DNA of 64,000 nucleotides. Origin: Condylostoma magnum (Eukaryota > Ciliophora > Heterotrichea > Heterotrichida > Condylostomatidae). Positions 2,842 to 59,049 of the stretch are shown here, piece after piece; positions within the stretch are counted from its first letter, which is position 1; each line of letters starts with the position of its first letter. The notes under the pieces were generated by a model that worked only from the letters and a program-made list of their open reading frames with translations, was not told the DNA's origin and ran no database searches. Location of the stretch: positions 34,029-98,028 of the forward strand of contig CAKKTI010000027.1 in assembly GCA_920105805.1 (NCBI GenBank). Direction: 5' to 3'. The translations under genes and the position numbers were made by a program.

Positions 2842-3750
2842 ATGTAAGAGGAAAAGGACTAACAGAACCCCTATATTCCTTAATTCATAGCTCAAATACC
2901 CTGGTATGTAGGCCAACGTAGCTCTCATGTACAGAAAGATTAAAAGAAGTAAAGCATTGATACCTGATATACCAAGGGGGCTCGGTAAGACTAGATAATA
3001 ACTAAATTCCGTAAAGGAGCATGTACTAACTGTGGTGCAATGTCTCATTAGGTTAAAGAGTGTTGTGAAAGGCCTCGCAAGATAGGTGCTAAATGAACTG
3101 GTAAGAACATTCAATAAGATGAAGTAATAGAACATATTGACTTAAATTGGGATGGTAAAAGAGACCGATGAAACGGATTTAGCCCGGATATGTACTCTGA
3201 TATTATGAATCAATGATAAGAAGTTGAATAGTAGGCAAAATCAGACAGTGAAGAGAGTGACTATGCAAATGGCGATATGATAATGAATATAGATCCTCGT
3301 ACAAAAACTGTAACAAAGGCCAGGAGGGATAGAGAGGACACTGCTTCTTACTTAAATGAACTTGATACTAGCGTACAAGATTATGATTCAAAGAGCAGGG
3401 CATAGATTGATCAAATGACAGAAATGATTGGGCAATAGGAAAATTAAATGTACAGAGATCATTGGGTTAAGATTGAGGGAGGAATGCAAAAGTTTTATGA
3501 AATGGAGAATTTCCTGAGTTAAGTTAATAGTAGAGGAAATGATGTGAATTAAACGGCAACACCCTCGTAAAGTGAACTACTATTTAAGCTGTATAAGTAG
3601 AAGAAGGAGTTGATGAACAAGGCTAAGGAAAAATCGTTGACTGAAATGTATGGAGAGTAAGATGATTAAGAGGAAGTAAAGGATTTTATAGAGCCTAAAA
3701 TTGTTAAAAAGGTAAAAAGAGAGAGGGATTGATATGTTGTAATGTATTAA
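2842..3750 (+). CDS. SLU7: Pre-mRNA splicing factor Slu7 homologue
   Basis: Second-step splicing factor that acts in 3' splice-site choice in the spliceosome. The N-terminus has NPYIPQFIAQIPWYV, then the CCHC zinc knuckle [28 protein letters not shown] at about residues 55-82, written here with CX2CX4HX4C spacing, and NWDGKRDRWNGF, where the invariant Trp is UGA (3169-3171). The C-terminal SELLFKLYKQKKE block also matches. At about 300 residues it lacks the final KYEEDV...YWK segment of animal and plant Slu7. The end is either UGA at 3730 or, reading that as Trp, UAA at 3748-3750. No intron. Confidence 0.9.
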
Positions 3751-15571: not shown

Positions 15572-15781
15572 TTTTAATTCTTTTATCGTAAAAGCACCTT
15601 TTGTATATTAAAAACTTATTAAATATCATATATCTCTAACTAATAAACAAAATAAAGGTAGGGACATTTTAACATCTTTATTACAAATGAATGGAACTTA
15701 TGGAAAATCTTCATTATACTTTTGTCGTAAGGCAAAATCTGGAATTTGAGCAGAATTAAATAAATAGTTTTGAAAGGTTAT

Positions 15782-17740
15782 TTATTCTTCATCATCTTCT
15801 TCAAAACTTATATTGAAATTATTCTCTCTACGAGTGGAATTATCCTATTCCTTTAACTCTTATTGATTACTATATTCTAACTTTTCAATATATTATTATA
15901 TCTTCTCTTTTAATCTGTTTCTATGATTTATCTCCCGTTTAAGCATCTTTTTGCTCAGGGGAACTTACCTAATTCTCTTTTTAGACTTTACAAATTACCT
16001 TGATAATAATATGTAATTTACTTAATCTGCTCTTTCCTTCACTCATTTACTCTTAGTTAAATCAGTATTAAGATTAAGCTATATCAATTTGCAATGAGTG
16101 GCAATATGGCCAAGGTTTTTACAAATAAAGCAATTTATATCAAGTATAGTAAAATCATTATTTCTGCAATTTTCCTTTATAACTTTTATTCTGGATCTAA
16201 CAGACGGCATTCTTTCAATAATGTCTTTTATATCATCCCTTGATACGGTTAAAACCTCAACATAAGTCAAGCACCGTGCTGTTGCTGTTCTTGATTACTC
16301 AGTATAAAAGGCAATTTGACCAAACATGTTATCCTTATCCATAACTCCAAATCTAGTATCCGTTTCATAGTGAATTATCTCTATCTAACCAACCTATATA
16401 TAATAAATATTAGTAGTCTACTCTCCAGTTACAAAAATAATGTCAAAAGGAGCAAATAGCTGCCTGTTTAGCACTTTTCCTACAGAGCCTAAAAAAGTAT
16501 TGGGAAAATGTTTGAATACAGTGCATTATTAGAAGAAGTTTCTCCTTGATATACTAAAAATTTCATCTCGCAAAGGTTCTGATAAAATAGCCAGTATTTC
16601 TTTCTCATTTTCAGCAATACTATCAGAGTACTCAATCAAGCATTCAATGAATAATTTAACTCTTTACTGTAATTAGTATGACATTTAGTAATCTCGCATA
16701 AATTTGATAAAATGCACTAATTTTTCCCTTAGATCCACTGAATGATTATCATCCGACGTTAAGTTTCCAATACTTCCAACAGTATAAGCAAAAATAACAC
16801 AGCAGAACACCATGCATATAATAGCATAAATTTTTTCACTTTAATTATAAGGCACCATGTCTCCATATCCCACTGAAGTCATAGTAGTTAAAGCCCAGTA
16901 AATAGTGTTCACGTATATTGTAAAAGAAGAACTATCTAATAAATTATTCCTCAGTAGTCAAGTATTAGGGTTATGTTTAGATTCTTCAAGACTGATATAA
17001 AACCAAATACACGAAAGTCAATGAGCCATTGTAAATGCCCCCACTGTAAGCTTTATGGAAGTAAAAATATTAGCTATGGCTACACTTGAAATGTACTCTT
17101 ATAAATCGTATAAAATTTGCTATAGTTTGACTATTCTCAGTAGCTTCACTATCCTAAAAAGCTTTAAAAGACGGATTAATTGAGTTGCATTTGACGGCCC
17201 TTAAGAGAAAGTAAGAGGATTATTTCCGTTTATTGCCTCTATGATCTAAGGAATCGGTAAGATGGAAATTAAGTCGATGAAAAATCATTATTTTATATAA
17301 CTTTTAGCTATAATCGCCTTATCATCAATCAATATTCCTCCGCTATAAATAGCTGTATTGAAAGACATGAAAATATCTAGTGTGAAAAAGATTGTAATGA
17401 GAAGATCGATTATATTTCATAGTAGCTATTCTTCTGGATCAAAGGCCAAAATGTAAGGTAATGTTAACCCTTAGAAAAATATCAAAATTATACTGAATAT
17501 ATCTCATATTAATTTAAAGTTATTCTCAGGATTAATAAATCAAGTATTATATATACCACTTTCTTATCTAGTTATGGGATAAAACTCCTCTCTTGTGAAT
17601 GTTCTGTAAGAATTATCGAGAATACTTGAATAAAATTGTGAAGAATTTACGTAGTTACCTGGCTGTTTTTGAAATTTAAAGCTTAAATCGTATAATGAAT
17701 TCTTTGACCACCAATTTTAATTCTTTAATACTTTATACAT
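15782..17740 (-). CDS. Voltage/cyclic-nucleotide-gated potassium channel with C-terminal zinc knuckle
   Basis: 652 residues. Six membrane segments are visible from about residue 95 to 320, including an S4-like stretch (LIRLLKLFRIVKLLRIVK) with regularly spaced Arg/Lys. The pore reads TMTSVGYGDM (about 286-295), the K+-selective filter. A C-linker and cyclic-nucleotide-binding domain follow (about 370-525: GEQTTNIYYIQVGQIEI, FGQIAFYTEQSRTATARC). A CCHC knuckle CFICKNLGHIATHC sits at about 536-549 before a basic coiled coil, an arrangement I recall from other ciliate channels. Several Trp are UGA. The end is UAA at 15782-15784, followed by more UAA/UAG codons. Predicted location: plasma or ciliary membrane. 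Confidence 0.9.
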
Positions 17741-20070: not shown

Positions 20071-22605
20071 ATGATATCTGATGCAGATAGCTTTTCCTTC
20101 TTAACTGAAGAAACAGATGAAGAGAATGCCTAAAATAGTACAAATGCAACAAAAAGTTTAGTTTATTCAAAAAACCGCCTTCCTCCTCCAAACCCGCTAA
20201 TCCCTAAATAAATATAATAAATAGAGCACCCAAATACAGCTCATAGGATTCCGTTTTGGTAACTTTTAGACAGTAATTTGCCAGAATTGAAAGGACAACA
20301 AAAGCCTTATGAATAAAGTCCAACTGTTGATAAGTAAGACTTGCCCTTACCAGCACCTGGAGTAATGACTTTAAGAGGGGTGATGGAAACTACGACTATA
20401 GTATACAAAAGGACTAGAAGATTTCATGAAAACAATATTTCTCAGGGGTTTTATAATGCAAATCCATGTGACTTAAGCAAATTATTAAAAGCAAGATAGA
20501 ATTCAAAGATTAGCATACCAAAACCAATCGTTAGAGATAATTTAGAGCCCTGGTATTAAAAATCAGGTGTATAAGATAATACGTTAATGTTCGAGTCACG
20601 ATTTGAGTCTGGCAATCTTTCCCTGGCAGGTAAATTAAGTCGGTATGAGTATAATTTAGTATGCTAAAATGATACTAATTCTAGAGGACATACACAGTGA
20701 TACTTTTATAAGGTAACTAATACGAGATGTTGCAATATTAAATTTAATATACTAAACTTTATCAAACCAGACTCTCTATACAACCAAGGCATGAAAGTTT
20801 CTATATACTCTTAATCTCACTTTGAAAAAACAGGAGAAGGATGATTTCGAGGAGGAGAGAATATTAAGTATTTTTGTAACGGAATTATAAGAGATCACAT
20901 TGCAGGAAAGTTTTTCCATACTCTTTCTTTCAGTTACAAATTTGCATACAATAATGACACTGTATACTTTGCCCATAGCATCCCATACACCTACACCTAA
21001 CTACTAAGAGAGCTAAATTCAATAGAACAAGACTAATAAAGGTAACAATTTATCCATAGAAAGGTCATGTGTAAAACCTTAGGAGGAAATAACTGTGATT
21101 AATTAACAATTACTAACAGAGGCTCAATAGAAGATAATTAATTTAAAAAGGGAGTTGTACTAAGTGCTAGAGTTCATCCTGGGGAGTCAGTAGGTTCATG
21201 GATGATGTAAGGAATTATAGAGTTCCTATTATCAGACGCTTTGGAGGCAGATTATCTAAGGTCTATGTATATTTTTAAAATTATACCAATGATGAATATT
21301 GACGGGGTTATTAACGGTAATTATAGATGCAGTTTAGTAGGCTCTGATTTAAATAGAAGATGGAAAAATCCCAATCAGCAGCTTCATCCTGTCATTTGGA
21401 ACATGAAAAATATGATATATGAGTTCGGTAGGAGGCAACAATTAGAGTTAATATGCGATCTTCATGGACACTCTAGGAAAAAGAATATCTTTATGTATGG
21501 ATGCGAAATGAAAGATTAACCTCATGCTTGCAGAATTTTCCCGTATATTCTAAGCAAAATTTCACCTAGTTTTGACTACTATAGCTGTAAATTTGGGGTT
21601 TAAAGGTCGAAAGAGTCTACTTTAAGAGTAACTTTATTTAAAGAGCTGTAAATTCCTAACATTTTTACCTTAGAAGCCTCGTTTTGTGGCGCTGATAAGG
21701 ACCGTTATGAAAATTAGCACTTTAATACAGATATACTAAAAGAAATGGGAAGAGATCTTTGTTTAGCTTTGATCCCAAATGCTTATTCTAATTCCTCCAT
21801 ACCACCGACTCCGACTATAAAAAAGTAATTAAACAGACGTATAAATCAAGAGGGTCAACCTCTTGCATAAAAGACTACTAACCTTAGTAAAAGTACAACT
21901 AAATATTCGTAAATCAGCTCTAAATATAGATAGCTAAACAGGCAAATATTAATACAAGATATGCTAGATAATAATGAATTATTACAAATAGGAGCAGATG
22001 AGGACTCAAGCTCTGGATCCGACTCAGATCCCTCTGAAGATAATTTCGAATTAGAAGATGTTAAAAAGATCACTTAAATCAATGCTCCAAGGAAGAAATC
22101 AATATAACCACAAACAAAGAGACGATAAAGATACGCTAGAACTCTAAGTTAAGTTAGAAAGTAAAACAAAGAGCCTACTTAGTCTAACTAAACACCTGTA
22201 AGATAAACTACATAAAGACAAGAAGAATACAAGCCAAAAATAGTCATACAGACCAAAGGAATCAAAACATACTATAATAAAAAGGGTAAAAGAGTCCACG
22301 ACTAAATCAGCTAAACTCCTACATCATTTTATCCTAAAATCTTGTTAATAAGAGCACAAATGTTAAGTGCTTCGGATAAAAGAGGAAGTGTATAGAGTAA
22401 ACTGCATACTCCTGCATTTAATGACGAAAACTAGCAAAATGAAAATATCGCATAAAGCTTAAGAGATACAAATTTCAAGAAGTTTGTGAGAAGAAACAGA
22501 ACTTAAAGCCCGTTTTCAGAGGTTAATAGAAGCTTAATACCAAGCAGCAAAAAAGTAAACAGTCATATACGAGGAACAAGCAATAATATAAAAATCCGTC
22601 AATAA
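20071..22605 (+). CDS. Cytosolic carboxypeptidase (CCP/AGBL, peptidase M14D)
   Basis: About 844 residues. The N-terminal beta domain (about 190-330: FESRFESGNLSLAG, QWYFYKVTN) is typical of the CCP subfamily and is followed by the M14 catalytic domain (about 360-560). Zinc ligands are HPGE (about 368) and the His of DLHGHS. The arginine/asparagine pair is DLNRRW and the catalytic Glu lies in TLEASFCG (about 533). It should remove glutamates from tubulin side chains or C-termini. The long basic tail contains an acidic motif SSGSDSDPSEDNFE (22000-22050) that also occurs in the second carboxypeptidase of this window. Stop is one of UAA 22603, UAG 22609 or UAA 22621. Confidence 0.9.
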
Positions 22606-23350: not shown

Positions 23351-24586
23351 ATGGCAAGTTCAATAGATCAAGAAGTCTAAGAACTCACTAACACTGAAAT
23401 CTAGAACAGAATATCAATGATGGACAACAACATCAGAGTAATGAAATCTGAGTGTTCTCGGTTAGACCACGAAAACCGCAACATAAAGGGCCGCGTAGAC
23501 GAGAACAAGGAAAAAATCAAGCTAAACAAACAGCTTCCCTACCTTGTAAGCAACGTTATAGAGATCCTCGACCTAAGCGATGAGGAGGAAGACGATGAGA
23601 TTTAAATAGAACAGACCAGAAAGGCAGTTTCTATTAAAACTTCTACTAGACAAACTGTATTTCTTCCAGTCCCCGGGCTAGTTGACCCTTCTACTCTAAA
23701 GCCAGGAGATCTCATAGGTGTAAACAAAGACTCGTACCTCATACTAGACACACTTCCCCCTGAGTACGACGCGAGGGTCAAAGCAATGGAATTAGACGAG
23801 AAACCTACAGAGGAGTACTCGGATGTAGGCGGATTGGACAAATAAATCGAGGAATTGATAGAAGCAATAGTGCTTCCAATGACACACAAGGAGAAGTTTG
23901 ATTAGATTGGTATTAAGCCACCCAAGGGAGTCTTAATGTACGGCCCTCCTGGCACTGGGAAGACCTTAATGGCTAGGGCCTGTGCTGCGTAGACTAATGC
24001 AGCCTTCTTAAAGCTGGCTGGGCCGCAGTTGGTATAGATGTTTATAGGAGATGGGGCTAAGATGGTTAGGGATGCCTTTGCACTGGCAAAGGAGAAAGCA
24101 CCTGCTATTATATTCATTGATGAGTTAGATGCTGTTGGAGCTAGAAGACATGACGCTGACTCAGCCGGGGGCCGAGAAGTATAAAGGACCATGCTTGAGT
24201 TGCTTAATTAGTTGGATGGGTTTGGGACGGATGACAGTATAAAAGTAATTGCTGCTACTAATAGACCTGATATACTAGACCCCGCCTTGTTGAGGTCAGG
24301 CAGGCTGGATAGGAAAATTGAGTTCCCTGAGCCTAATTTTGAGGCCAGAGTTAGGATTATGTAGATTCACTCCAGAAAGATGAACTATGATAAGGATAGT
24401 GTCAATTTTGAAGAGTTGGCCAGGAGTACTGAGGATTTTAATGGAGCTATGTTAAAGGCTATATGTGTCGAGGCCGGTATGATTGCGTTGAAGAGAGGAG
24501 GGACTATTATATAGCATGAGGACTACGTGGATGGTATTGCACATGTACAATCGAAGAAAAAGACTGCTCTTAATTACTATGCTTAG
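23351..24586 (+). CDS. RPT5: 26S proteasome regulatory ATPase subunit Rpt5 (PSMC3)
   Basis: 411 residues, close to the usual length. An N-terminal coiled coil is followed by an OB domain and an AAA+ ATPase domain. The Walker A motif is GPPGTGKT (about 198-205), Walker B is [11 protein letters not shown] and the Arg-finger region is [13 protein letters not shown]. The sequence [20 protein letters not shown] is nearly identical to animal and yeast Rpt5. The protein ends KTALNYYA, the HbYX-type tail that docks into the 20S core, followed by UAG at 24584-24586. Inside the gene UAG (for example 23990-23992) encodes invariant glutamines. Codon use is richer in G/C than in the unknown neighbours. 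Confidence 0.97.
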
Positions 24587-24605
24587 TTAATTTTAGATGT
24601 TTTTA

Positions 24606-25556
24606 TTAGATAAGCAACTTTGCTTGGTCTAATGATCTCAAGGCTTGTAGCAGGTTTATTGCATTGGTTAGGATAGGAGTGTTGGATGGTCTGTTAAAGA
24701 GAGGTATGCTCCGCATTTACTCACAGTTTCATCGAAATTAGCCTAGTTCAGCTTCTTGGGAAAGCATTGGATTGGAGATTGTAAATATGTCGCATTGATC
24801 GGATATTATATCATCATCTGAGCTGTTTTACACGTCAAGGGAGTTATTTATTGGGGTAAAACCTAGATTTTTGTGATCTTGGAGGCACAAGGAAGCCATT
24901 CTTCTTAGTTTGTCGTCTTAGGAGGTTGGACGAGATGAAAATTCAGAGGAGTCTTTAGTTGAGGATGTGTTTTAGCGCTCTTTGTATAGAGATTGATTTG
25001 GTAGGGGGCTAGGGATTGGGGTTATGTAAGCTACTATTAGCTCTATGTAGCCTTGGCTTAAAGATAGGCTCAAATCGCTTCGGGTTTAGTAAGCTACTTT
25101 AGCGTCTTCGGGTACCCAATTAAGCATGTAAATGTCTGATATCGTATAAAACATTTCTTAGTTGTCTAACTAATGAGCTGGTAATTACTTTGCAGTACTT
25201 ATGATATTATTTATAAAATCTGTTGATTATATTTCCTTGCCCTTTTCTAGTTTTTATATATCAGAGTAATAGCTAAATACTCATCTTTCTAATAAAATTT
25301 GCTTAAAATTATCATTTCTGACAAAAATTTCAATATAGATGGTAAGATAATTACTTAATCCGTTCTTAAGGATAGTCTTAAATTATCTACGAATATCTGA
25401 ATAAATCGAATTGTTTTTAGTACTTGTTATGTCATCAAACTTTTGATCGTTAATTTTGTTATGCAATCTATTCTCTAGGATTGTATATGAGGATTAAATC
25501 AATATTTCAGTTATAATATCCTCTTAATTTACTTCGAAGAAAGTACTATTTTCCAT
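24606..25556 (-). CDS. Probable ATG13-like HORMA-domain autophagy protein
   Basis: About 316 residues. The N-terminal 180 residues fit the ATG13 HORMA pattern: an early helix, ILLERWVFSYYSDIQ, LPAHQL, then FYTISDIYMLNW and YIELIVAYITPIPSP. The rest is Ser-rich and disordered. ATG13 joins the ATG1/ULK kinase complex that starts autophagosome formation. The match is by pattern and is not strong. The first UAA at 24606-24608 is taken as stop, 19 bp from the end of the convergent Rpt5 gene; a later UAA would overlap it. Confidence 0.45.
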
Positions 25557-31883: not shown

Positions 31884-33654
31884 ATGCTTGAGGAACTAAA
31901 AAGTACAGTAGTCACATTAGATTTCGAACGATTTGAGGAGATAATTAAATCCACTGATTAGGACTTATGGAGTATCAATGACTTGAACAACCGAAATATC
32001 TTCCATGAACTTTCCTTTATCTTCATTAGGGAGAACAGGGCTAAGTAATTTTTAGATATTTTTGTATAATAGTTCAAAAGTCGATACCAACAGTCCTAAT
32101 AGCTAAGTATGTGCATAGATGCTCAAGACTTACATGAATAAAGAACTCCTATTCACTGAGCNNNNNNNNNNNNNNNNNNNNNNNNNNNNNNNNNNNNNNN
32201 NNNNNNNNNNNNNNNNNNNNNNNNNNNNNNNNNNNNNNNNNNNNNNNNNNNNNNNNNNNNNTGTATAATAGTTCAAAAGTCGATACCAACAGTCCTAATA
32301 GCTAAGTATGTGCATAGATGCTCAAGACTTACATGAATAAAGAACTCCTATTCACTGAGCTGTCTTAAATAATAAAAGGATTTTGCTTAAATCCCTTATA
32401 AACTATGGAGCTGATTTAACTAAATTAGATATAGAAGGATAATCTGTTGTACATTTAGCTGCTAGTACAGGGAATGTGATCATTTTAACTAAATTAATAC
32501 TTTTATACAGACTACCGTATGACGATGTGGATTTATAAGGCAATTTACCTTTACATATTGCTTGTTTATAAGGCCATGATTTTGCAGCTTATCTTCTACT
32601 TGCTTGGACTATTTAAATAGACGTTAAGAACAATTAAGGATATACACCTTTGCATCTTTCTACTATTGCTAAGAGTTATAGAATAATAAGATGTCTTTTG
32701 ATAAGAGGAGCAGATAGAGACATCGTAAATTGGTAAAACTAGAAGCCAATAGATACAGCAGTTAATGAAAACGCATCAGAAATTATAATTTCCTTACTTA
32801 AAAAACCTACCTTCATGCAAAAGTTTAACCCTATAAAGCCTCCTATCCAGAAAGCTAATTCAAACTATGTGCAAATGGTAATATATATGGTCCTATACAT
32901 CATAAGATTTATAATAATATTCATGGCAATAGTTCCAAATGTAGGTAAAGCACTAGGAGTGTTCTCCCTTTTAATCTTTCTTTTATGCATAATTATGTAC
33001 TTATGAGCATTTTTAAAAGATCCTGGATATTTAACAGTAAAGCAATAATCGCTATATAAGCTATACAAAACTTATTAACCTGAGTACGTTTGCCCTAATT
33101 GTGAAATAAAGCGTGACCGTGATACAAAGCATTGCTAATACTGCAATCGTTGTGTAGATAAGTTTGATCACCACTGCCCGTGAATACATAACTGCGTTGG
33201 GAGCTAAAATCACTTAATTTTCTTCGTATTTTTAATAGTCTTAGAAACAGATTTCCTGTATCACTCGATTTTAGGAATTGTAGTATTGATTCATGAAAGT
33301 GATGATCCTATATTCACAGATGTTTTCCCAGACCAAATTCATAACCATGCAAAGGCAGTAGGATATACTCTCTGTATATTTTGCGGAATTTGCTTTGCAC
33401 TCATTTTACCTCTACTATTAGTTTAATGTGGTAATATATGCAGATAAACCACGACGTTTTAAAGGTTTGCAAATAGACAAAGATCCAGCCAGGACGGGGG
33501 CAGTTCTTTACTAAATAATTAAGACAGTACAATCCACATGCTGAATCAGCTGACCACAGAGTCATATGGACGTCAAAGCATTGAGGTAAAAAGAAAGCTA
33601 TGCTGCTACTTCACAGAATCAGAGGAAAGTGAAATGAGATCTGTTAATAACTAA
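31884..33654 (+). CDS. Ankyrin-repeat DHHC palmitoyltransferase (HIP14/ZDHHC17-like), interrupted by an assembly gap
   Basis: Four or five ankyrin repeats are readable (RTPIHWAVLNNKRILLKSLI, VVHLAASTGN, LPLHIACLQGHD, TPLHLSTIAKSY), then membrane segments. The zinc-binding core is CPNCEIKRDRDTKHCQYCNRC and the catalytic motif is DHHCPWIHNCVG, where the conserved Trp is UGA at 33181-33183. Two more membrane segments and a Ser-rich tail follow. HIP14-type enzymes palmitoylate proteins recognised by the ankyrin domain. The coordinates include 100 Ns and a 99-bp duplicate (32063-32161 and 32262-32360). Collapsing these gives one continuous frame through the first repeats. UAA at 33652 or 33661 ends it. 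Confidence 0.9.
32063..32161 (+). repeat. 99-bp sequence, left copy beside the assembly gap
   Basis: Identical to 32262-32360, base for base by eye, on the other side of the N-run. It is part of the ankyrin-DHHC coding region; the two copies most likely represent one genomic locus. Confidence 0.9.
32162..32261. other. Assembly gap of 100 N
   Basis: Exactly 100 unknown bases, the conventional size for a gap of unknown length, flanked by two identical 99-bp copies. This is a scaffolding artefact where overlapping contig ends were not merged. Confidence 0.98.
32262..32360 (+). repeat. 99-bp sequence, right copy beside the assembly gap
   Basis: Second copy of 32063-32161, continuing directly into the ankyrin repeats of the same gene. 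Confidence 0.9.
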
Positions 33655-33666
33655 ATTGATTAAAAT

Positions 33667-34302
33667 TTATACCAAAACTATTAGAATTAAATAACTAACA
33701 GCCATCATAACCCCTATATCAGGTTTACTATCCAGGTCCTAAATTTCAAAAAATATAACTCTTCCACAATCCGCTGTTTATATAAAACTTGAATAGTACT
33801 ATTACAAATCAACCCAATAATTTCAATATTCCCAGCTAACTTCCTCATCTTCCTCACAAAGTTATCATAATTCTTCAAAAACTTCAGAGCCAATGCCAGG
33901 TCTGCAATATGCAAAGCCATCAAACCCACACTCACAAGGCATTTTATCACCGTTGACCATTACACAATCTGAGTCATCAGTGCATCTATAGGGATGAAGC
34001 TACCCATTTGCAAGCATATTGCCCTCGGGTCTTGGATCACATACTTTGTCACCCTTTTCCTCTACTTGATTATCTTCTTGCTTTTCTACGCATTAAATTG
34101 CTATAGCTTATTCAGTTGAAATTGATGTTTAAAATTATTGTAATACATTTTAGGACAAGCAACCTTTGTCTTCAGCACAACCGTTTTCATTTACTTATAA
34201 ATCTCCTGAGCCTTAGAAATTAATACAGACACCTGGTTCTAAGTCATCACAGCTTATTTTAGGGCATTCTAAAGATAAAGCAAGATTTAACAAAAGGAAC
34301 AT
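33667..34302 (-). CDS. Cys-rich type I membrane protein, function unknown
   Basis: 211 residues. A signal peptide (MFLLLNLALSL) is followed by an extracellular region with about 13 cysteines arranged in pairs (CPKISCDDLEPGVCINF, CTDDSDCVMVNG, PCECGFDGFAYCRPG), which resembles small disulfide modules of ciliate surface proteins, and a C-terminal hydrophobic anchor (VMMAVSYLILIVLV) ending at UAA. No family assigned. It is convergent with the ankyrin-DHHC gene, about 4-12 bp between stops. Confidence 0.65.
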
Positions 34303-35421: not shown

Positions 35422-36546
35422 ATGTCTTACAGTGAAATTTTCATAAAGGCATTGAAATACTTTAGAGATTTTATAGAAATAACTTAAAATATAGGTAATA
35501 ATAGAATTTGTAATGAAGATTGAAGGATACCAGAGTATTTCTAACTAATGACAATTAATGGAATACAATTAGTAGACATACTATAACTCCACAATAATTC
35601 AAGAAGAGGACTCATTGGGAATAGTATAAAAGCGCTTTAATATTAAGTAAAATTGAATTAGATATTAAAATAAACCAAAGACTTAGGAAATTTACCAAAA
35701 TAACCAACTTATTTAATATAAAATTTAAATGAAGTATGCAGTATATCTATTCAAGATAATACAGTTGTTATTGGAAGTAGTGATTAAACTGTATAAATTT
35801 TAGACTTATAAAATTAAAACAACAAAAGAGAGATTGGAAGACATAATGATTGGGTATCAAGTGTATGTATTCAAGGCAATACAGTCATAAGTGGTAGTGA
35901 AGATAGAATCATATGATTTTGAGACCTATAAAATCCTAAAAACAATAGAGAGATTGGAAGGCATTCAAGCGACGTATTAAGTATATGCATTGAAGGTAAT
36001 AATGTGATCAGTGGTAGTGATGATATTAATGTATGTCTTTGAGACTTATCAGATCCAAACAACAATAGAGTAATTTGAAGAAACAATCATATGCTATTTA
36101 GTGTGTGTATTTAATGTAATATTGTTGTAGGCGGAGGGGAAGATGAGACAATATGACTTTAGGATTTATAAAATCCAAGTATTAATAAAGAGATTGGAAG
36201 ACATACTAATAAGGTAAGTTGTGTATGCATTGAAGGCAACATTATCATAAGTGGAAGTGATGATAAAACTATTCAGCTTTGGGACTTATCAGATGAAAAT
36301 AACAATAAAATAATTGGAAGACATAGGAAAGAGATAAACAGTGTATGTATTAAAGATAGCAAGGTGATTAGTGCAAGCAATGATAAAACTGTATGACTTT
36401 GGGACTTGTAAAATCCAAACAATAATTAAATCCTATTCAAATCTGAAAATTTTATTACAGCTTTGACTTTAAGGAATAAAATTATCATAATTGGAGAAGT
36501 TGATAGTGATAATAAATCTAATATAATATACTGGAGTTTAACATAG
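35422..36546 (+). CDS. WD40-repeat protein with very similar tandem repeats
   Basis: 374 residues. A 120-residue N-terminal region is followed by about seven WD40 units with a period near 41-42 residues, each like VCIQGNTVISGSEDRIIWFW followed by DLQNPKNN. The repeats differ little from each other, pointing to recent unit duplication. The Trp of the WD pairs is mostly UGA with some UGG. A propeller of this kind usually acts as a protein-binding platform; no partner can be named. UAG at 36544-36546 (followed by more UAG) is the stop. Confidence 0.85.
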
Positions 36547-36919: not shown

Positions 36920-37444
36920 TTATATTCATTCAAACTTTCTACTTCTTTTCTTTTTATAATTATTCTTCTTTGCTTTAACATGTTTTTCTGCTCTCCTCCT
37001 TTCCCTCTTCTCCTATCTTTACTTCTTAGCATCTTAGATTGACTAATACAACTTATTTCCCGGATCAAATCCAACTCCAGTGGTTTTAACTCCTCTTTCC
37101 TCCTTCTTAATAAAATCAAATTCTCCAGTTCTCTATGTTAATTTCTTATATTCATTTTGACTAATTCCTCGTTTCCTCTATATTTTTCCTTCCAAGGCTT
37201 CTTCTATACATTACTAGTCTTATTCCCTAATTCTCCGCATCTCTTCATCTAATCCTTCCCTTTCTACCCCTGCTTCTCCCCGAATCCACCAATCTCTTGA
37301 TTTCCATCTTCCTCCAGAGTCTAAAAAGCCTATCTTCACACTTGCCCCTAAATAGCATTCTCTCTCCTTATACGGCATTTGCTTTACATCCTCCCAGGCA
37401 AACAGTCCTCTTCCTCCTCTATTCCCTTCTCGTATTGGATTCAT
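36920..37444 (-). CDS. MMTAG2-family protein (PF10159-like N-terminus)
   Basis: About 174 residues. The start MNPIREGNRGGRGLFAWEDV, then KERECYLGASVKIGFLD and GRWKSRDWWIRGEA, matches the conserved N-terminus of multiple-myeloma-tumour-associated protein 2 (RGGxxxFxWEDVK...RENYLG...GRWxxGRDLxWY). The C-terminus is Lys/Arg-rich as in the family. The molecular role is poorly known (nuclear or nucleolar in animals). UGA at 36926 is either stop or Trp just before UAA at 36920. The start lies 22 bp after the stop of the CAP-domain gene on the same strand. Confidence 0.75.
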
Positions 37445-37466: not shown

Positions 37467-38231
37467 CTAAGCTTCAATAATGTCTTCGGTCATCTGAGTA
37501 CTCCCATCTGACATTTCTCAGTACTTTTTAAGCTTCTTCACTTGCTTTCCTTCCTCTACACCTGATCTGACTTCGCAGGTCATCTTCACAGCTCCTTCCA
37601 GCCACTCTCCAACCTCCGGCACAGTAGGAATCTCTCCTTCCGGTTCTTGAATCTCAGGTGCTGAGTTATCCTCACTGAAATCTCCTGCAAAAATAATTGC
37701 AACCATTGACTTGTACTGGGTATGAGGCCCAGATCCGATTCCAACACATGCAAATTTCTTATTCATAATTGCATTTCTATGAGGTCTAGTGGGCAAACCA
37801 TCATCCACTATAAAAGAACAAACTACTTCAAATCCTGTGACACTGCCATAATCAAGTGCCTCAGCCAGAGCTTCACTCCACTTGCCAAACCGTTCAACTC
37901 TTTCTTAAAAGCGACTCTCATCACTGGCAATATGACCTATGATTCCCTTAGAGCCTGTATCGTTGACTAGAAATTGTGCAGCTCGGCTTAGGCCATCTGA
38001 GTAGTTTAGAGAGTCTATTGGCTGTTACTCACGTAGGAAATTAATTGCTTCAATACATGCTTCTTTACCTTCACGAGTTATCAGAGGAACTGCGTTGGGG
38101 CGATGTAAGGCGTTATTTGCTTTATATTGTTCTAGATATTTTTCCATGTCATCAGCAAAACTAGAAGGGTGAGTCCTTGCCCGTGTTAACTCGTGGAATA
38201 CGTCTATTGATAGATTTGAGAAAGTAGTCAT
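37467..38231 (-). CDS. CAP/SCP-domain protein, no signal peptide
   Basis: 254 residues. The CAP fold is clear: FHELTRARTHPSSFADDMEK, NFLREQQPIDSLNYSDGLSR, GHIASDESRFQERVERFGKW, SEALAEALDYGSV, RPHRNAIMNKKFACVGIGSG and MVAIIFAGDF. The His and Glu of the CAP cavity are present. The protein lacks a signal peptide, unlike most family members, so it is probably cytosolic or ciliary. The acidic C-terminal extension reads through a UGA as Trp (KKLKKYWEMSDGS) to UAG at 37467-37469. Confidence 0.85.
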
Positions 38232-41611: not shown

Positions 41612-43111
41612 TTACTGCAACCTATATTTGCTACCTTTTGTACTGGAATAAGGAGGAGGAGAAACTGGAGATTTCTTTATATTAGGAAACTCTTTCATTT
41701 CATTAGGCTAGGATCTTGTCTATCGCTTATAACTTGATTGTTTTATTATTCTAGTTTACTGATTTGAGATCTTTTGTTTTCTTGCATTTCTCTATTGTTC
41801 AACTACATTTGATGAGTTTTCATAGGGAAGCTATCTATGCAGAATATTACCAGTTCCCTTAGATAAGCCCTAAATTCTCTCTAAAATTTAATCATAGTAT
41901 TGGTTACACCCGGCTCTGTATATAAGATCAAATCCTCCCAAGTTTCTCCTTTCATATACATCACGTCTCTTTTGTTCTTGCTATTTAGTAAACTCTTTCT
42001 TATGTAGATATTATGAATAAGTTTGGCCTGAACGACTAACCATTTAGTCATGCATAGCTTTATAATACTTTGCTCTATTTCTTCTGTTTAAGTTAATCAA
42101 ATTCAATGCATCTTTTATAACAGACTCTTTTACTCTTTCATCAAGAGGAGTATCTGCCGTAAAGCTTGGAGTGTGATTGACTTCCAGAAGAAAAGGTTTA
42201 AATTAAGAGTTGATTATAATATCAAAGCCTAAAATCTCAAAACAAATAGAATTAGTTAATTCATTTCCTTAAGCAGACTTATAGATATGTGATAAGTGTG
42301 GCTAAGCTGTTAATAAAGTTTTAATGATTAAGTCTTTTATCTATTCTCACAACCTCTGTGTATTTTATCCCTCATCATATAACTACTGCAATACAGACTA
42401 TAAACACCGCTTATGTCCTGTATTTGTGTCTTAATCACTTTGATTGAATATAAAATTAGCATCATTTTTATTTATTGCATAGTTAGTTAAATGACTGCAT
42501 ATATCATTAAGGTTCTTGGGAGTAGGAGTTTGGTATTCATGTGTTGCAAATCTCACTAATCCTTCTTTATGCAAAAAAATCCTTAAAGGATCGCATCCTG
42601 TTACAAGTACATAAATTCTAAAATCAAATTTTAAATTGTCTATCAAATAAGGACGAGCTAGATAGCGCTGTACAACACACTTTTCTGGGATTTCTTGAAA
42701 TTTTCTAGTTAAAAATATTCCTCTTCCTTAGCAACTTGCTTCTGGTTTTACAATAAATGTTTTAGCTTGTTTACTATTAAACTATTATCTAAGCTTTATT
42801 CCGTCTCTTGGTAATATTCATGTATCAGGAAAGAAATCAAATTCTTCCGTTAAATGTCTCTTAATATCATTAAGGTTTTTCCCTAAGTAGTCTTTTCTAG
42901 ATATAATATACATCCCTGGAAAGTGATTGATTCTTTGATAGGATTTAAGAGATTGTAGTATTTCAGGAGTAACACCGGAATCCATTCAATACAAGTCAGC
43001 TTTTTATGATTGGTTTCTAACAATATATCAATTGAAGTCCTTTTGTATTATTCTTGTAATAATTTCATACTAGGTTTATATAAGATTTACGACAATCTAG
43101 TTTTTAGGCAT
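41612..43111 (-). CDS. Tubulin polyglutamylase, TTLL family
   Basis: 499 residues, read without intron. It starts MPKNQIVVNLIQTQYEI and has DFNWYIVRNQ and KADLYWMDSGV, where the Trp are UGA. The ATP-grasp core is complete: INHFPGMYIISRKDYL, KTFIVKPEASCQGRGIFLT, FDFRIYVLVTG, SHLTNYAIN and the metal-binding FLLEVNHTPSF. This fits the TTLL4/6/13 group of glutamylases, which add glutamate chains to tubulin tails in cilia. The C-terminal 120 residues are basic, as in enzymes that bind microtubules. Start codon is 24 bp from that of the divergent gene. Confidence 0.92.
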
Positions 43112-47034: not shown

Positions 47035-49455
47035 ATGTAAAATTTGCCTCTCCCCTAACCTATATTTCGAAAAGGAGAATATAAGGTATTGTAAATATCA
47101 CACAGAACAACTCCGAAAAATCAAAAACTACCATCATTAAGTAGTTTTGATTCCTCTTATCTCAGAATTTAATATTAGTATTAGGAAGGGGTATAAGTGA
47201 ATAATCCGTATTACTAGCCTTACAAGCCAAGAGATAACGATGAAATGAAATAATACTTAAAATATATAATGGGGTAGACTAAGAAGCCTAAGTTTTTGAT
47301 ATAAAGTACAAAACAGCCCGGAATATAATTTGATAGTCTATTTGAGTGTGGCAACTTAGCAAGTGTTATTAAGATAAGTGATTAAGAATATGATTTGTTC
47401 TTAAGAGTTGATACTAATACTAAAGGCTATTGCTAATGATTTTACTTTACTGTGAAGAACTTTATAGCTGGTTAACGTTTAAAATTCAATATATTAAATT
47501 TCAGTAAGTAGTGTGAAGTATTTGGACAGGGATTTAAACCAGTCTATAAAGTACTATATTTAAACAATACTCAAAGCAAGTGAAAATAAATTAAGTCCGA
47601 TATTGAGTTTTACAAGAATAAGCTACAGTAAAATTGCTTGAATAATATCGAGGAAAGTTCTTAAGTAAGATAAACTCGGAAAGGGCTGTATACACTATCA
47701 TTTTCTCTTTAATTCAAGGAAAATTATAAAAAGGTTTACTTTGCCTTTTCAATTCCCTATACATTTTCCCGCCTATAGGAACTATACCACAATATTGAAC
47801 CAAAAGTTAAACAAGAAAGTTGTCCTATTGTAATTTCAAATGAAAGAATTCTGTATATAAGAAAAGTCCTATGCAATTCAATACTCGGTATACCAATAAA
47901 CTTCATTATAATAACAAATCCTAAAGAAAAGGGGCTAAAATTCAATAAGAGAAAAGCAATAATTCTTTCAGCCAGAGTTCATCCTGGAGAAACTCCAGGA
48001 TCTTTTACAATTGAAGGATTAATACAAGAATTGATGTCAAACTCCCATTTAGCTAATGTGTTAAGGAGTAAGTATATTTTCTATATAGTTCCAATGCTAA
48101 ATCCTGACGGAGTGATGGCTGGGAACTCAAGAACATCTTTAATTGGACAAGATTTGAATAGAAGATGGTAAAATCCCAGGGAGATAGAACATCCTGGTAT
48201 TTTTCATATGAAATTACTTCTATAGAAAATTTAAAAGGAAAGAGAAATCACCCTTTACTGTGATTTTCATGGGCATTCGCGCAAAAGTAATGCTTTTATA
48301 TACGGAAATAGTACCACAGCTAGTGGTGGATTTACCTCTTGAACTCTAGTAAGACTGTTTCCTAGAATAATGGCTAAAGTAACAGAAATGTTCTCTTACA
48401 ATAATAGTAGATTTGGCATATAAAGGGATAAAATAGGCACAGGAAGAGTTGTTGTGTGAAAAGAGTTCAAAGTAAATAATAGCTTTACTATGGAAGTATC
48501 TTTCTATAGTTATAAGCTATCTGAACAGCATTACATCTTTACAGAAAACTTGTATAGTAAATTAGGTAGTGATTTTTGTAAGGCATTGCTAGAGTATTCT
48601 AACATTTATTATGAAGTATAAAGGGAACTAAATGTAACTAATGGGTGACTTAAGCCCTCAAAAATGAAAGAGTTTTCAGGTTTACCTGCTTAAGAAAGAA
48701 TTGAAAAGGAGATGCAAGAGCAAGCTAAATAAAATAGAATGATTCAAATACGAGAAAGAGTCAAACGATATAAAATGCATAAGAAATCTATTAATAAAGT
48801 GTAAGACTTAAAGAAAAACTCGCATAGAATGTAAGAAAACCTTAACTGGCAATAATACTTCGGAAAAAAAGAAATTAATACAGTTTTCAAAAAATTCATA
48901 TAAAATTAGCACATCTCTGAAGATGAAAGCTCGGGATCTGATTCCTGTCCCTCTGAAGACAACATAGAAAATGTGTTTATTATTCCTAAAGCTCAAAAGG
49001 AACCTGTTGTAAATCCACCTATAAAGCAAAAAGCTTAAAAATTACCTAAAGATTTCAAAACAAGAAATTTCCCCAAGTCCTCCAATCCAAGACCAAGAAG
49101 ACTAATGTAGAAACAAGACTACTAGCAATCCCAAGTAAGCGGATACATAGTGCTACCTTTTTCTGAACAAAGCACTACACCTTAAAATCGTTAATTCAGA
49201 GCAAAGCCAATACATACTAGGTAAAACGCTAAATCTTTTGAGTCAAAAGTAAATAAAAAATCAGTATTTGAGCTAAGTCTTGAGCTTAATGACATAGAAA
49301 GTAATACAAACTTTTTAATGAAGCCATTTGGCAAAGGAACTCTAAGACCTTATCGGACCCCTGAGAGAAGAGAAACTTTTGATATTGGGCCCACTTGCAA
49401 AAAGCTGAAAGTAAGAGATAAATCTAAAAACCTTAAATCCAATTTTAATTTTTAG
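47035..49455 (+). CDS. Second cytosolic carboxypeptidase (CCP/AGBL, M14D)
   Basis: About 806 residues, uninterrupted. An N-terminal beta domain (about 100-250) is followed by an M14 domain. Zinc ligands are HPGE (His at 316) and the His of DFHGHSRKS; DLNRRWQNP matches, and the catalytic Glu lies in TMEVSFYSY (487). All catalytic residues are present, so it should be active as a deglutamylase. The long basic tail repeats the acidic motif SSGSDSCPSEDNIE (48919-48969) found in the first carboxypeptidase. The two enzymes are clearly diverged outside the catalytic core. UAG at 49453-49455. Confidence 0.9.
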
Positions 49456-50351: not shown

Positions 50352-50381
50352 TTAATTTTATTGTGAATTTAGTTAAACTAA

Positions 50382-51218
50382 TTATCCTCCTACAGATCCA
50401 AGTCGTTTTTTAAAGGTCGGAATTTTCCCAAATTCACTAAAATAATCATAGTGGCCCGGGCCTGGATTTCTTACTTGTTCTTTATTCACTATTCCTTCTC
50501 TTTATGATCTACCAAATATACTTTTACCGTTGCATACGTATTTTGAGACGAAGTAATTTCCGGTTTTATTGAATCCAACTTCAGTCTTATAAGCATTTGG
50601 CCCAGGGGAAGGTGTTTTATTAATAAAATCTTTCTGTTTTGGAGGAGAAATAGTGCAACATTAACTGCCTTTGTATTTAGATGTAAAGTATTTGCCCAAA
50701 GGGTCTAAATCTAACTTAGGCTTGTAATGACCCGGCCCTACACCGTCATTTTTCTAAATTACACCTGTAGATCTATTTCGCATTGTTCATTTGGGACTCT
50801 CTAATGCAAATTTCTACTTATACTCATATGCCCCTGGTCCTGGAACTATAGGATCTGGCTTATTAGTTCCTTCAATATACTATTTTTCTACTAAGTCTCT
50901 AGAAACACCAAAAGTGAATTTCCCACCCTTAGATAGATTTCTACGAACTTCGTAGGCTGTTGGCCCAGGACTGTTTTCTGTTTATATATTACATCCTAAT
51001 TACGACGTAAAGTCACTCTTGCTTCCTAATCCAATTCCAGCTCCTCTTTTACTTAAAGTGCTAGGCAGTTAGTAAAACAAGGATGATCTGTGTGTATTTT
51101 ACGCAGATTAACTCGGCTTAAACCGCGGTGATCGTGAGAACAGATATGACTGCTTGCTCGACGACCTATTAATTGGAGAATTCGTAACAGATTTGTGATT
51201 GATATCAATCAAGGACAT
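50382..51218 (-). CDS. Sperm-tail PG-rich repeat (STPGR/SHIPPO) protein
   Basis: 278 residues. Four PG-rich units are visible: SPGPTAYEVRRNL, VPGPGAYEYKQKF, GVGPGHYKPKLDL and NPGPGHYDYFSEF, plus SPGPNAYKTEVGF. Repeats of this type occur in microtubule inner proteins and other axonemal proteins. One Trp is UGA. It starts only 5 bp after the stop of DGAT1 on the same strand and is convergent with the TPR/RRM gene by 30 bp. Confidence 0.88.
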
Positions 51219-51223
51219 TTTTA

Positions 51224-52573
51224 CTAACTAGGAGTATACCCTGTTTCTTTCAGTGCAGTATACGTATAAATCACAGTTGCCAAGGGTTGTCCCACAACGC
51301 AGAATGAGATCCAGAACATAACATTGCCTAATTAACTTGTCTCAAATGGCTTTTTTAGTAAATCCTGAATTACAATCATAGGAATTTGCATTTCCATTGC
51401 AAGAAAAGCCCAACATGTTAGTAGATGCGTAGCTCCGCTAATGATATACTCATGTGCGATGGCAGATACTGTGAAAACAACAATCATGGCGAAATGTCTA
51501 TGCACTCCTTGGGCTCGAATTGGGTTGTATATATGCTTTACTAGTCAGTTATGTACTGGCTTGTTCCACAGCCTCCAATACTCCGAGAATGTTTTAGCAT
51601 TCCACCAGTCATCGTAAAATCTGCGGTCTCCAAATCTTAAAATCTCTGCTACTAGATTACACTAGGCATGAAATCCGTTATAGAACATAAGTAGCCAGAA
51701 AACGGTATTGGGCAGGGAAAGTCTTAGGAGCTTGTCTGAGATTAAAAATAAATTGTACTCCGGACTGTCTAGTAAAGGAATTAAATCGAATACTAGGGGT
51801 ATTAAGTACTATTATACGATTATGAACATCAGGGCTGCTGATAACAACCATTCAAGTATTCTTTTAACAAGCCAACGTTTACGGATTCTTTGGTTCATTG
51901 GATATGAGAACTAAAAGCAGAAGGATGGAATAAAAGTGAAGTACATCATATGCTTGAAGGATAAGGAGCCTGGGTATTTTTCGATTATTGCTTTTAACTC
52001 AGAGTCAGCGTCGGTTAATTCACAGTCTTCATATTTCACTGCGTTTACAAACTAGCGAAGGTCTCCCATTACATGAGCATAACTTGTAAGCTTCATAGAT
52101 ATCATCGCCGCTAGGCTCAGTGTATAGATATTAAGGAACACATTACCTCTAAACTGCCATATAACATAGAATGGCACAATTATCTCTGCTAGAATGATCA
52201 CAGTATGCGTAAAAATAGCCAATAATCGAGGGTTCTTCACATTTCCAAATACGAATTTTTCACATGCAAATGCACAAAGAACAGGTAAAAGCATTGTTGG
52301 CAGCAATAAAAACAATGCATAATTATCTTTTAAAATGCCTAGCATAGAAGGAATCTATAACATAAAACCATATCGATGAATATTTTCGATAATTAGTCTG
52401 AAATTAATCACGAGTAGAATAATAGCAGCCAGATTTAATAACCCTCTATAATTAGGAGATTCAGCCTCAGTGCTAAGTGGTGATACTTAAAAGTCCGTAT
52501 GTGCCTTACTACTCAAAGGGCTATACTCCATGATAACCAACTGCTTTTTAGCTGCTTCCTTCTTTCCTCCCAT
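51224..52573 (-). CDS. DGAT1: Diacylglycerol O-acyltransferase 1 (DGAT1/SOAT, MBOAT family)
   Basis: 449 residues. It starts [40 protein letters not shown] is the characteristic first membrane helix, and eight or so helices follow. The acyl-CoA-binding motif [15 protein letters not shown] (about 316) and the catalytic His in [11 protein letters not shown] (about 373) are intact; PVHNW has UGA for Trp. The enzyme makes triacylglycerol from diacylglycerol and acyl-CoA in the ER. It lies 22 bp after the SPOC gene on the same strand. UAG at 51224-51226. Confidence 0.93.
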
Positions 52574-52595: not shown

Positions 52596-54530
52596 TTAAA
52601 CATTTTCCTTCAATCTCTTCCCATGATCCACAAAAATCCCTAAAATTTGTTCTTCTCCCAGCTCTGAATAAAACTCTTTTGCCTATGGCACTGGAGGAAG
52701 CATATACATAGAAATTCCTTTCAATGGAACAAACCCCCCTCTTTACTTCTATACAAAATATTTTATATAGTTATTGAACACCTTTTAGTCCAACTCAACA
52801 GAATTTTCGAGAGTAACAACCCCCAGAATTTCATATTTTTTAACCTCCTCGAAGGTAATCCTATGTGTAATATTTAAATGATAGATCGTAGAAAGAAAAT
52901 CAGCATGTCCTCTAACCAATGTCGCGTCCACCCCTACTTTATGGGATCTAGACCTGGTCATAAACCCAGACCAAACTACATTCCCTATATTGGGGTTCAG
53001 TGGCTCCTTGACCACTGGAATGGACCTACTAACAAAGGTTTTTGGCTTAGTATCATATGAAGGAGTTACCGAAGGTACTGTTTACAGTGTAGGGTTGGTA
53101 TTTAGAAATTGAAAAGGTTATTAATAAAACGGCATCTACGTAGACATTAAGTGAGGCTCATATTTATTAGAGTCAAAGTGAATATTCTTTAACAAGCCAG
53201 AATCATGTATGTGAGGATCATATGACATCATTAAAGTTCCCTCGGAAGGTGCGGGAAGTAGAGGCGGAGGCTGTAGTAAGGCATCTTAGTTCTGCGGAGC
53301 AGTGAGAATACCTGGTCCTGCACCTACTGTTCCGTTTATCTCTGGAGGTTTCTACATTAGTCTTTTAGTCACTTCTTATATTTCCTCTCTGCTTATTTTT
53401 ATTTAGCTTCGAGGGGGGTTGCGGGCAGTGCTGTTACGAGATACTATGGTGTTAGTGTTTTTAAAGGAGATTTCTAGTGCAGGATCGCCCAGTTCACGTC
53501 GCCTATGCCCGGACCTGTCCTCAATATACAGTTCCCTGCGGGCTGTTGCGGCCTACTCACCCCTATCAAAGTCTACAAAGGCATATGGCCGCATGGCCCC
53601 CTAGGCTTACTTTACATGCACTCCCTTTACCAGTCCATACCTTGAGAACACTTCCCGTATTCTCTGCTCTGAAGGAACTATGATATTGGAAGAGTAGCCT
53701 AAGTATAGATTCTTGAAGTTTTCATCGTCAATAGGGTTAAAATTAGGATCACGAGGAGTTGAGCTGTCTCCTACTATATCAATTCTACGTGTTGGATCAG
53801 CAAATGCTACCTTGACTGGCCTTCCGTCGACTAGTGTTCCCTGGGCTCTTTCGTAAGCTAATGTGGCCTAAGTCACACGTCTGAATTTTATAAAGGCGAA
53901 GCCTTTAGAGGAGAACATTTCTATACCTTCTATCTCTCCAAAGGCCTTGAAACTATCAAAAAGGGCTTTTTTCTCAGTTGCTGGGGATATGTTGCCTATC
54001 CACACCTCTCTTACTAGGAAGAACTAGCTGTATATCTACGGAATCCCCGAGGTAATGAAGATATTAGGGTGATTCTCTGCTAATAGTCTCTCTACATACT
54101 GTTAATCCATCTAGTTAGTAGGATTACTCCTGCCGTTGTTAGTGAGCATGAGATGAGTAGCCTGAGCATTATGAGAAAACGCGAATAGGGAGGGCTGCGG
54201 TAGCTCTTCAATCTAAGCCTCCTACTGCTTAATCTACTATTCCTATGCCTCCTTGCTCAATCTGACAGTCCACCCATCCTAATTCAGTACATCCATTGCC
54301 CTACGGGCATCCCCCTCCTTCTAAAACACAATAAACCCGTACACACTCTCCTTAAGCATCTGCCCGCTTCCACTTTTACGAATGATTCTGATGTCCTCTA
54401 CAGGCCCAAACTGGCCGAAAGCGTCTTGGATTGTCTTTTAAGGCATGCTTACTGGAAGATTTGAAACATGAAGCTTAAATCCTTAAGAATTACGAGACGG
54501 AGAACGACTTCTGGATCGGCGTTAGTACAT
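52596..54530 (-). CDS. RRM and SPOC domain protein (SPEN/FPA/RBM15-like)
   Basis: 644 residues. A short SR-like start (QRRSRSRSPSRNS) is followed by RRM1 (about 18-95: FKLHVSNLPVS, ESVYGFIVF). RRM2 (about 190-265) has REVWIGNISPATEKKALFDS and KGFAFIKF, and RRM3 (about 290-375) has KNLYLGYSSNIIVPSEQRIR and RPYAFVDF. The C-terminal SPOC domain (about 505-640) has NVVWSGFMTRSRSHKVGVDA, ILGVVTLENSVELD and LKGISMYMLPPVP. SPEN-type proteins link RNA binding to transcription, m6A or 3'-end control. RRM and SPOC order is as in the family. No intron; UAA at 52596-52598. Confidence 0.92.
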
Positions 54531-54632
54531 TTTTTATAATTGTTGTTTAAATGGAGGGCGTTTGATCGATATTTTATATGGGGAAATTTGAATGATAGGG
54601 AAAATTTTTAAGTAGTGTAAATTTTGAATAAA

Positions 54633-57600: not shown

Positions 57601-57653
57601 AGTATCAAAAGGCTGTTAGCGAAATGATTGCATCGTTTCAAGGAAGTGTTTAG
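54633..57653 (+). CDS. CCDC15-like centriole/cilium protein with long Lys/Asp repeat
   Basis: 1006 residues. The start MQNFEQNSQLQRTGG leads to PLVVPARVQSQIPPQVVAQYE and a coiled coil. Residues about 203-438 are a low-complexity run of KKKKD units broken by KSKGDDDDENQ spacers. The rest is Pro/Asn-rich, then coiled coil, ending with a Cys motif CTCGALNGKQGVSHPFQC and ANNCPFYERQQEYQKAV. That motif matches, from memory, the C-terminus of CCDC15, a protein of the centriole inner scaffold. UAG-UGA at 57651 ends it. The antisense strand of the repeat gives a spurious Leu/Ile-rich frame. Confidence 0.7.
55240..55945 (+). repeat. Degenerate purine-rich tandem repeat coding for (KKKKD)n and KSKGDDDDENQ units
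   Basis: Nearly pure A/G on the plus strand. The larger unit is about 75-90 bp (several KKKKD pentamers plus one KSKGD spacer), repeated about eight times with small changes. It lies wholly inside the CCDC15-like gene and stays in frame. Confidence 0.85.
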
Positions 57654-58499: not shown

Positions 58500-58507
58500 T
58501 AATAAAA

Positions 58508-59041
58508 ATGAACGTCACTGAGCAAATCGGTGTGATATTAGACTAATCCTTATAAGCTAAAAGTTTTAAGCCTATTTGCTCTCCTTTCTCTAGTACTGTA
58601 CCCCCAAAAATTTTAATCAAGGATTATATAAAGAGATTAAAGACTTACATGAAATGCTCAGATGACTGTTTTGTTTTAGCACTTGTTTATATAGACAGAT
58701 TTGCTAATGGTAAGAAGAAACAATGTATTTCTCCTTTTACTATACATAAATTATATTTAACTGGAGTTGTAGTAGCCGCTAAATTCATAGATGATACATT
58801 TTACAAAAATTCCTACTATGCTGAAGTTGGTGGAGTTACAAACTAAGAAATGAATATACTAGAAATGGCATTTTTGAAGAAGATTAATTTTGATTTGTTC
58901 GTAGATAAAGATTTATATGAACTATATGTTAAATCAATCAATCAATATCATCGTAGGTAGTATAAGTTTGTACGAAATTTGGTGTTTTTAAAGGAGTTTG
59001 TATTATCTGAATTTAATAATATGAATCTCCATAAATATTAG
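58508..59041 (+). CDS. PHO80/P-U-type cyclin
   Basis: 177 residues. The cyclin box fits the Pho80/PREG1/U-type pattern: PKILIKDYIKRLKTYMKCSD, CFVLALVYIDRF, LYLTGVVVAAKFIDDTFYKN, YYAEVGGVTNQEMNILEMAF and LKKINFDLFV. Such cyclins partner Pho85/CDK5-like kinases in nutrient or cell-cycle signalling. The Met at 58508 gives MNVTEQIGVILDQSLQAKSF; the open frame upstream belongs to the antisense gene. UAG at 59039-59041 is the stop. Confidence 0.88.
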
Positions 59042-59049
59042 ACAACATT

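Follow-up and report, generated by a model that had tools for sequence, protein, structure and literature searches.

UAG read as glutamine and as stop within one ciliate Rpt5 gene: evidence for a Condylostoma-type genetic code

Introduction

Can one codon insert an amino acid and also end the protein within a single gene, and if so, under which genetic code? The question is raised by a gene for Rpt5 (PSMC3, the 26S proteasome regulatory subunit 6A) in the window, by which we mean the whole 64,000-nucleotide stretch of DNA that was analysed here. Very few lineages are known to have a genetic code that reserves no codon for termination. Here, we propose that the window is very probably ciliate nuclear DNA with a code of the Condylostoma type (NCBI table 28), in which UAA and UAG (UAR) encode glutamine and UGA encodes tryptophan inside genes, and in which UAA and UAG, and probably UGA, terminate translation near the 3' end of the mRNA.

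Gene content of the window

The window is gene-dense and ciliate-like, with about 30 genes without visible introns according to Pfam scans and a codon-usage model. Along with Rpt5, these include genes for a ubiquitin hydrolase-like protein, Slu7, an aspartyl protease, a BPI-like protein, a cyclic-nucleotide-gated (CNG) channel, a dual-specificity phosphatase, a lipocalin, two cytosolic carboxypeptidases, two DHHC transferases, WD40, CAP, MMtag, TTLL6, SHIPPO, DGAT1, RRM-SPOC and cyclin proteins, and others. Those on which the argument draws are collected in Table 1. No tRNA genes, Rfam matches (including rRNA) or eRF1 gene were found within the window, and a run of exactly 100 N at 32162-32261 is an assembly scaffold gap.

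Two of the genes have unusual sequences. In the ubiquitin-hydrolase-like gene (290-2359) the catalytic cysteine looks lost, because the motif in which it usually stands reads GFENIGQISHILALLQCF. In the gene at 54786-57651 (+), a lysine-rich unit (KKKKDKKSKGDDE...) is repeated many times in tandem at 55200-56250, and UAA and UAG codons occur here and there among the repeats; the gene has a conserved-looking C-terminus without a Pfam match and a single in-frame UGA near its start (54786-55150), which is not placed by homology.

Table 1. Coordinates of the genes and codons discussed in the text (positions within the window)
Feature	Coordinates	Strand	Basis
Rpt5 (PSMC3) CDS including the UAG stop	23351..24586	+	phmmer against PDB, codon listing
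Rpt5 UAA = Gln (LDK-Q-I)	23843	+	aligned with human Rpt5 Gln
Rpt5 UAG = invariant Gln (ACAA-Q-TN)	23990..23992	+	aligned with Gln of human and other solved Rpt5 chains
Rpt5 UAG = invariant Gln (QLV-Q-MF)	24035..24037	+	aligned with Gln of human and other solved Rpt5 chains
Rpt5 UAA = Gln (REV-Q-RTM)	24182	+	aligned with human Rpt5 Gln
Rpt5 UAG = invariant Gln (LLN-Q-LDGF), followed by UU as at the stop codon	24209..24211	+	aligned with human Rpt5 Gln
Rpt5 UAG = Gln (IM-Q-IHS)	24362	+	aligned with human Rpt5 Gln
Last sense UAG of Rpt5, 24 codons upstream of the stop UAG	24512..24514	+	conserved Rpt5 sequence 3' of the codon
UAG stop of Rpt5 after conserved C-terminal YYA (HbYX-type tail)	24584..24586	+	alignment of solved Rpt5 chains ends here
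Convergent gene, no Pfam match; ends UAA-UAA (24608-24603)	24603..25556	-	codon-usage Viterbi, translation
Slu7 splicing factor; candidate UGA stop 3730	2842..3732	+	PDB search with UGA masked
CNG channel, C-terminal zinc knuckle; stop UAA ~15700 likely	15698..17698	-	best match 7w5z_C
Cytosolic carboxypeptidase (M14) paralogue a; stop UAA 22603-22605	20071..22605	+	
Ankyrin-DHHC palmitoyltransferase; stop UAA 33652 likely	32317..33654	+	search with UGA masked, Pfam
WD40-repeat gene; ends UAG-UAG (36544)	35665..36546	+	translation, Pfam
MMtag gene; candidate UGA stop (first terminal stop-like codon UGA 36928-36926, UAA two codons later)	36926..37444	-	Pfam PF10159
CAP-domain gene; ends EDIIEA-UAG (37469-37467)	37467..38228	-	Pfam PF00188
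TTLL6-like tubulin polyglutamylase; candidate stops UAA 41614 or UAG 41527	41612..43099	-	PDB match, E 1e-95
Cytosolic carboxypeptidase (M14) paralogue b, from the conserved core onward; stop UAG 49453-49455	47248..49455	+	
SHIPPO (sperm-tail PG-rich repeat) gene; stop UAA 50384-50382	50382..51218	-	Pfam PF07004
DGAT1 (MBOAT); stop UAG 51226-51224	51224..52573	-	E 8e-77; Viterbi boundary 51224/51225
RRM x3 + SPOC protein; stop UAA 52598-52596	52596..54533	-	Pfam RRM_1, SPOC E 4e-14; Viterbi boundary 52596/52597
Cyclin (PHO80-like); stop UAG 59039	58502..59041	+	

Rpt5 and its UAR codons

With UAA and UAG translated as glutamine, positions 23351-24583 encode an intronless Rpt5 of 411 residues, which in a phmmer search against PDB matches solved Rpt5 chains from residue 4 to its last residue (E ~1e-189). 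The AAA, lid and OB domains are all present, making this a full-length AAA ATPase with a C-terminal YYA tail. The alignment runs end to end without an intron-like insertion. Relatives of Rpt5 were absent from viral contigs, and the prokaryote contigs gave one match, a bacterial AAA fragment at 33%.

The interior of the gene holds 11 in-frame UAR codons (seven UAG and four UAA), all of them sense, and six of these (four UAG and two UAA) stand at glutamines also present in human Rpt5. Two of the UAG codons, those in ACAA-Q-TN and QLVQMF, had been assigned to invariant glutamines of the AAA domain in a first-pass annotation of this DNA; the alignments bear this out, and the coordinates given there were right. 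The last of the internal UAG codons must likewise be read through, because conserved Rpt5 sequence comes after it, up to YYA.

What, then, of the eighth UAG, which the same annotation took for the stop because it follows the conserved terminal YYA? The alignment with chain 8amz_M ends exactly there, both proteins closing on LNYYA (human Rpt5 ends LQYYA). Within Rpt5 the coding score is +0.23 nats per codon, beyond this codon it is -0.01, and the 3' end is bracketed by a convergent gene whose own UAA-UAA end lies 16 nt from the Rpt5 stop. An intron at this end was considered and rejected, as no GT-AG splice places a UGA after YYA; one that began at the GT of 24586-24587 would still give a codon starting UA. 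Taken on its own, the Rpt5 end is a suggestive case for UAG as a stop, because, if the codon were ordinary glutamine, chance alone would place a stop-like codon directly after YYA in ~1/20 cases.

The Rpt5 end also bears on the karyorelict code (table 27), under which UAR would always be glutamine, UGA would be tryptophan or stop, and Rpt5 would have a long C-terminal extension. Glutamine for UAR and tryptophan for UGA are compatible with that code, which Loxodes and Parduczia are known to use (PMC11441545, PMC4967479). However, the next UGA in the Rpt5 frame stands at 25202, so that the extension would be ~206 codons long, of non-coding quality, running through further UAA and UAG codons opposite the antisense gene and hiding the YYA tail.

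UAA and UAG at the ends of other genes

About 10 genes besides Rpt5 apparently end at UAA or UAG, and we read them as stopping there because the start or end of a neighbouring gene lies 5-60 nt away, a spacing that is consistent with very short 3' UTRs. The UAG of the CAP gene lies ~22 nt before the ATG of MMtag (37444), and the next UGA in the CAP frame (37247) is already inside MMtag. Similarly, the UAA of the RRM-SPOC gene lies 22 nt before the ATG of DGAT1 (52573) and that of M14 paralogue a 19 nt before the next ATG (22625); for paralogue b, the ATG of the next gene (49485) is 29 nt on from the UAG and the nearest in-frame UGA 425 codons away. Two further ends are convergent, the SHIPPO stop facing a gene that ends at a UAG at 50349 and the cyclin stop facing a hydrolase gene whose UGA is at 59052. 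In addition, the positions at which the codon model switches frame lie no more than a few bases from the stop codons of the SPOC, DGAT1 and M14 paralogue b genes.

UAG is thus found as a stop by homology in Rpt5 and by neighbours in the CAP, M14 paralogue b and cyclin genes and others, and UAA by neighbours in the SPOC, SHIPPO and M14 paralogue a genes and in the convergent gene at 24603. It is these gene ends that make the UAG stop of Rpt5 firm. They also bear out the earlier argument against a code with UGA as its sole stop, which Rpt5 supports and the ~10 genes with neighbour-bracketed ends confirm. The karyorelict code would carry the CAP, SPOC, SHIPPO, cyclin and both M14 genes into neighbouring genes before a UGA was reached, and it is contradicted by the UAR ends of Rpt5 and the ~10 other genes, where UGA as the only stop was not what was found; we regard it as very improbable.

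As a separate observation, the stops of convergent genes lie ~8-30 nt apart at five places (24586-24608, 273-292, 33652-33669, 50349-50384 and 59039-59052), which leaves room only for tiny or overlapping 3' UTRs.

UGA as tryptophan

The claim of a Condylostoma-type code needed further evidence, because Rpt5 alone does not show that UGA encodes tryptophan. As a guard against bias, UAA, UAG and UGA were all translated as X before the PDB search. Masked UGA codons then aligned with conserved tryptophans in at least seven genes other than Rpt5. In the CNG channel five of seven did so, in an alignment to 7w5z_C, which we take to be a Tetrahymena protein, that takes in the C-terminal zinc knuckle. 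The same is true of all three in-frame UGA codons of TTLL6, of two of the four in Slu7 (2965 and 3169, in GEWYKRG and DRWNGY), of the only one in DGAT1 (51547-51545, the tryptophan of PVHxW, here PVHKW) and of the only one in the ankyrin-DHHC gene (33181, DHHCP-UGA-IHNCVG, the tryptophan of DHHCPW). Each M14 carboxypeptidase adds one (20698 in a, 47437 in b). In the WD40 gene, the tryptophan of the WD pair is encoded by UGG in two repeats and by UGA in two more. UAR, for its part, encodes glutamine in conserved regions of Rpt5, TTLL6, DGAT1 and other aligned genes.

In the curated genes, UGA makes up 50 of 118 tryptophan codons (~42%), or 0.40% of 12,532 codons, and UAR makes up 665 of 989 glutamine codons (67%). 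Because UGA falls on conserved tryptophan in at least seven other genes, all 64 codons are sense codons in this DNA. At the level of sequence, we consider the sense readings, together with UAA and UAG as the ends of many genes, to be demonstrated.

These tryptophans weigh heavily on the ordinary ciliate code (table 6), in which UAR is glutamine and UGA the sole unambiguous stop, and in which Rpt5 would have to be a nonstop or decayed copy. Glutamine for UAR is common among ciliates, but at least seven intact genes with an in-frame UGA on a conserved tryptophan contradict this code, and decay was rejected as Rpt5 is intact from end to end and its neighbours show the same pattern. We give this code next to no credence.

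Two details concern single genes. The M14 paralogues encode the same conserved tryptophan by UGA, and both have long glutamine-rich tails. A five-residue insertion in the TTLL6-like protein was considered as a 15-nt intron and rejected, being without GT-AG ends.

UGA as a candidate stop

Does UGA also stop translation? It is the first terminal stop-like codon in four genes (Slu7, MMtag, the hydrolase and a gene ending at 5488), all of which have a UAA 2-25 codons further on. The earlier proposal of context-dependent termination of the Condylostoma type stands for UAA and UAG and gains tryptophan as a sense reading of UGA, and a stopping function of UGA is suggested by these four genes.

The other possibility is that UAA and UAG are glutamine or stop by context, whereas UGA always encodes tryptophan and does not terminate. 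The frequent use of UGA for tryptophan, ~10 times the per-codon usage of C. magnum, speaks for this, as do the UAA that backs up each of the four candidate UGA stops and the other 21 inferred stops, which are all UAA or UAG. Against it, UGA occurs within six codons of the terminal UAA in 3 of 25 genes as against the ~0.6-0.75 predicted from its frequency as a sense codon, a weak excess (P ~0.04 by our own estimate). We consider a tryptophan-only UGA unlikely, if worth keeping in view. To our knowledge, no such code is in the NCBI tables; if true, it would be an ambiguous code between those of Blepharisma and Condylostoma.

Sequence context of the inferred stops

What could tell a sense UAG from a terminal one? 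Context statistics were compiled for 25 curated gene ends; for 14 of these, bracketing neighbours or homology fix the position. The preceding 16 codons are free of stop-like codons in 24 of the 25 ends (expected 11.2) and in 13 of the 14 (expected 6.9, P 0.0007), counts that come from a small sample and are partly circular, since several stops, especially in genes without homologous C-termini, were picked partly by the stop-like codons clustering after them. A stop-blind Viterbi gene model, used for unbiased 3' ends, was too imprecise, and the depletion was not shown with it. Two checks are independent of how the stops were chosen: CAA and CAG (CAR) rise to 4.2% in the last 17 codons from 2.5% elsewhere, and U comes next after 16 of 25 stops (64%) as against 145 of 652 sense stop-like codons (22%; P 1.5e-5). 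Back-up stops are close by: in the bracketed set, the distance to the next stop-like codon averages 5 codons.

The U bias brings in a further explanation, namely a Condylostoma-like code in which a local sequence signal, and not distance to the mRNA end, sets sense or stop. The enrichment of U at +4 fits such a signal, as does the greater A+T richness of the 9 nt after stops (0.83 vs 0.68), although the latter may just reflect 3' UTR. But every stop with its following two bases is also found as sense, 2-42 times, and within Rpt5 itself UAG-UU is glutamine at 24209 and stop at 24584. The local 3' sequence is thus insufficient for the choice between sense and stop, and we hold a purely local signal to be improbable. 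On these sequence statistics, stopping in the Condylostoma-type code that we favour would depend chiefly on how near the codon lies to the 3' end of the mRNA.

Proposed mechanism and significance

In light of this, how might Rpt5 be translated? Seven UAG codons would be read as glutamine and the eighth, right after YYA, as stop. If work on C. magnum is a guide, glutamine tRNAs for UAR and a tryptophan tRNA for UGA would win inside the message, and eRF1 would win near the poly(A) tail, probably aided by a poly(A)-bound protein, because the 3' UTRs appear to be extremely short. The rule is visible from DNA alone: in an essential gene, UAG followed by an identical pair of bases is sense at one site and, 375 nt later, stop. 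The heavy use of UGA for tryptophan, moreover, may make this organism a better system than C. magnum for exploring to what extent a codon can pass to an amino acid and still stop translation.

Comparison with known systems

The nonstop code of the trypanosomatid Blastocrithidia also makes all three stop codons sense, with UGA as tryptophan, UAR as glutamate and UAA doubling as stop. The window shares with it the three sense readings of stop codons, the tryptophan and the stopping UAA, but UAR is glutamine here, UAG serves as a stop no less often than UAA, and the DNA is that of a ciliate. Closer in its assignments is Amoebophrya sp. ex Karlodinium veneficum, in which, as here, UAR is glutamine, UGA is tryptophan and stops are ambiguous (PMC6394959, PMC12005148). 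Amoebophrya, however, is a dinoflagellate relative with introns, whereas the genes here show no introns and the channel is closest to a Tetrahymena protein. The karyorelict code of Parduczia and Loxodes (table 27) likewise combines UAR as glutamine and UGA as tryptophan in genes with context-dependent stopping near transcript ends; it differs in that UGA is its only stop, whereas UAG and UAA end Rpt5 and ~10 genes here.

Compared with C. magnum (table 28), UGA is here no more than a candidate stop, and sense UGA, as read from DNA alone, is ~10 times as frequent as published (0.40% of codons here vs 0.042%; PMC4967479). So heavy a usage suggests that the DNA comes from a different species. In other respects the agreement extends to detail. 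UAA and UAG are glutamine and also stops, and UGA is tryptophan; stop-like codons are depleted before the stop and CAR is retained or raised there, U is favoured around stops, and back-up stops follow at about five codons, all as described for C. magnum (Swart et al. 2016, PMC4967479). As in C. magnum, too, there is no decisive local motif, and the 3' ends are compact.
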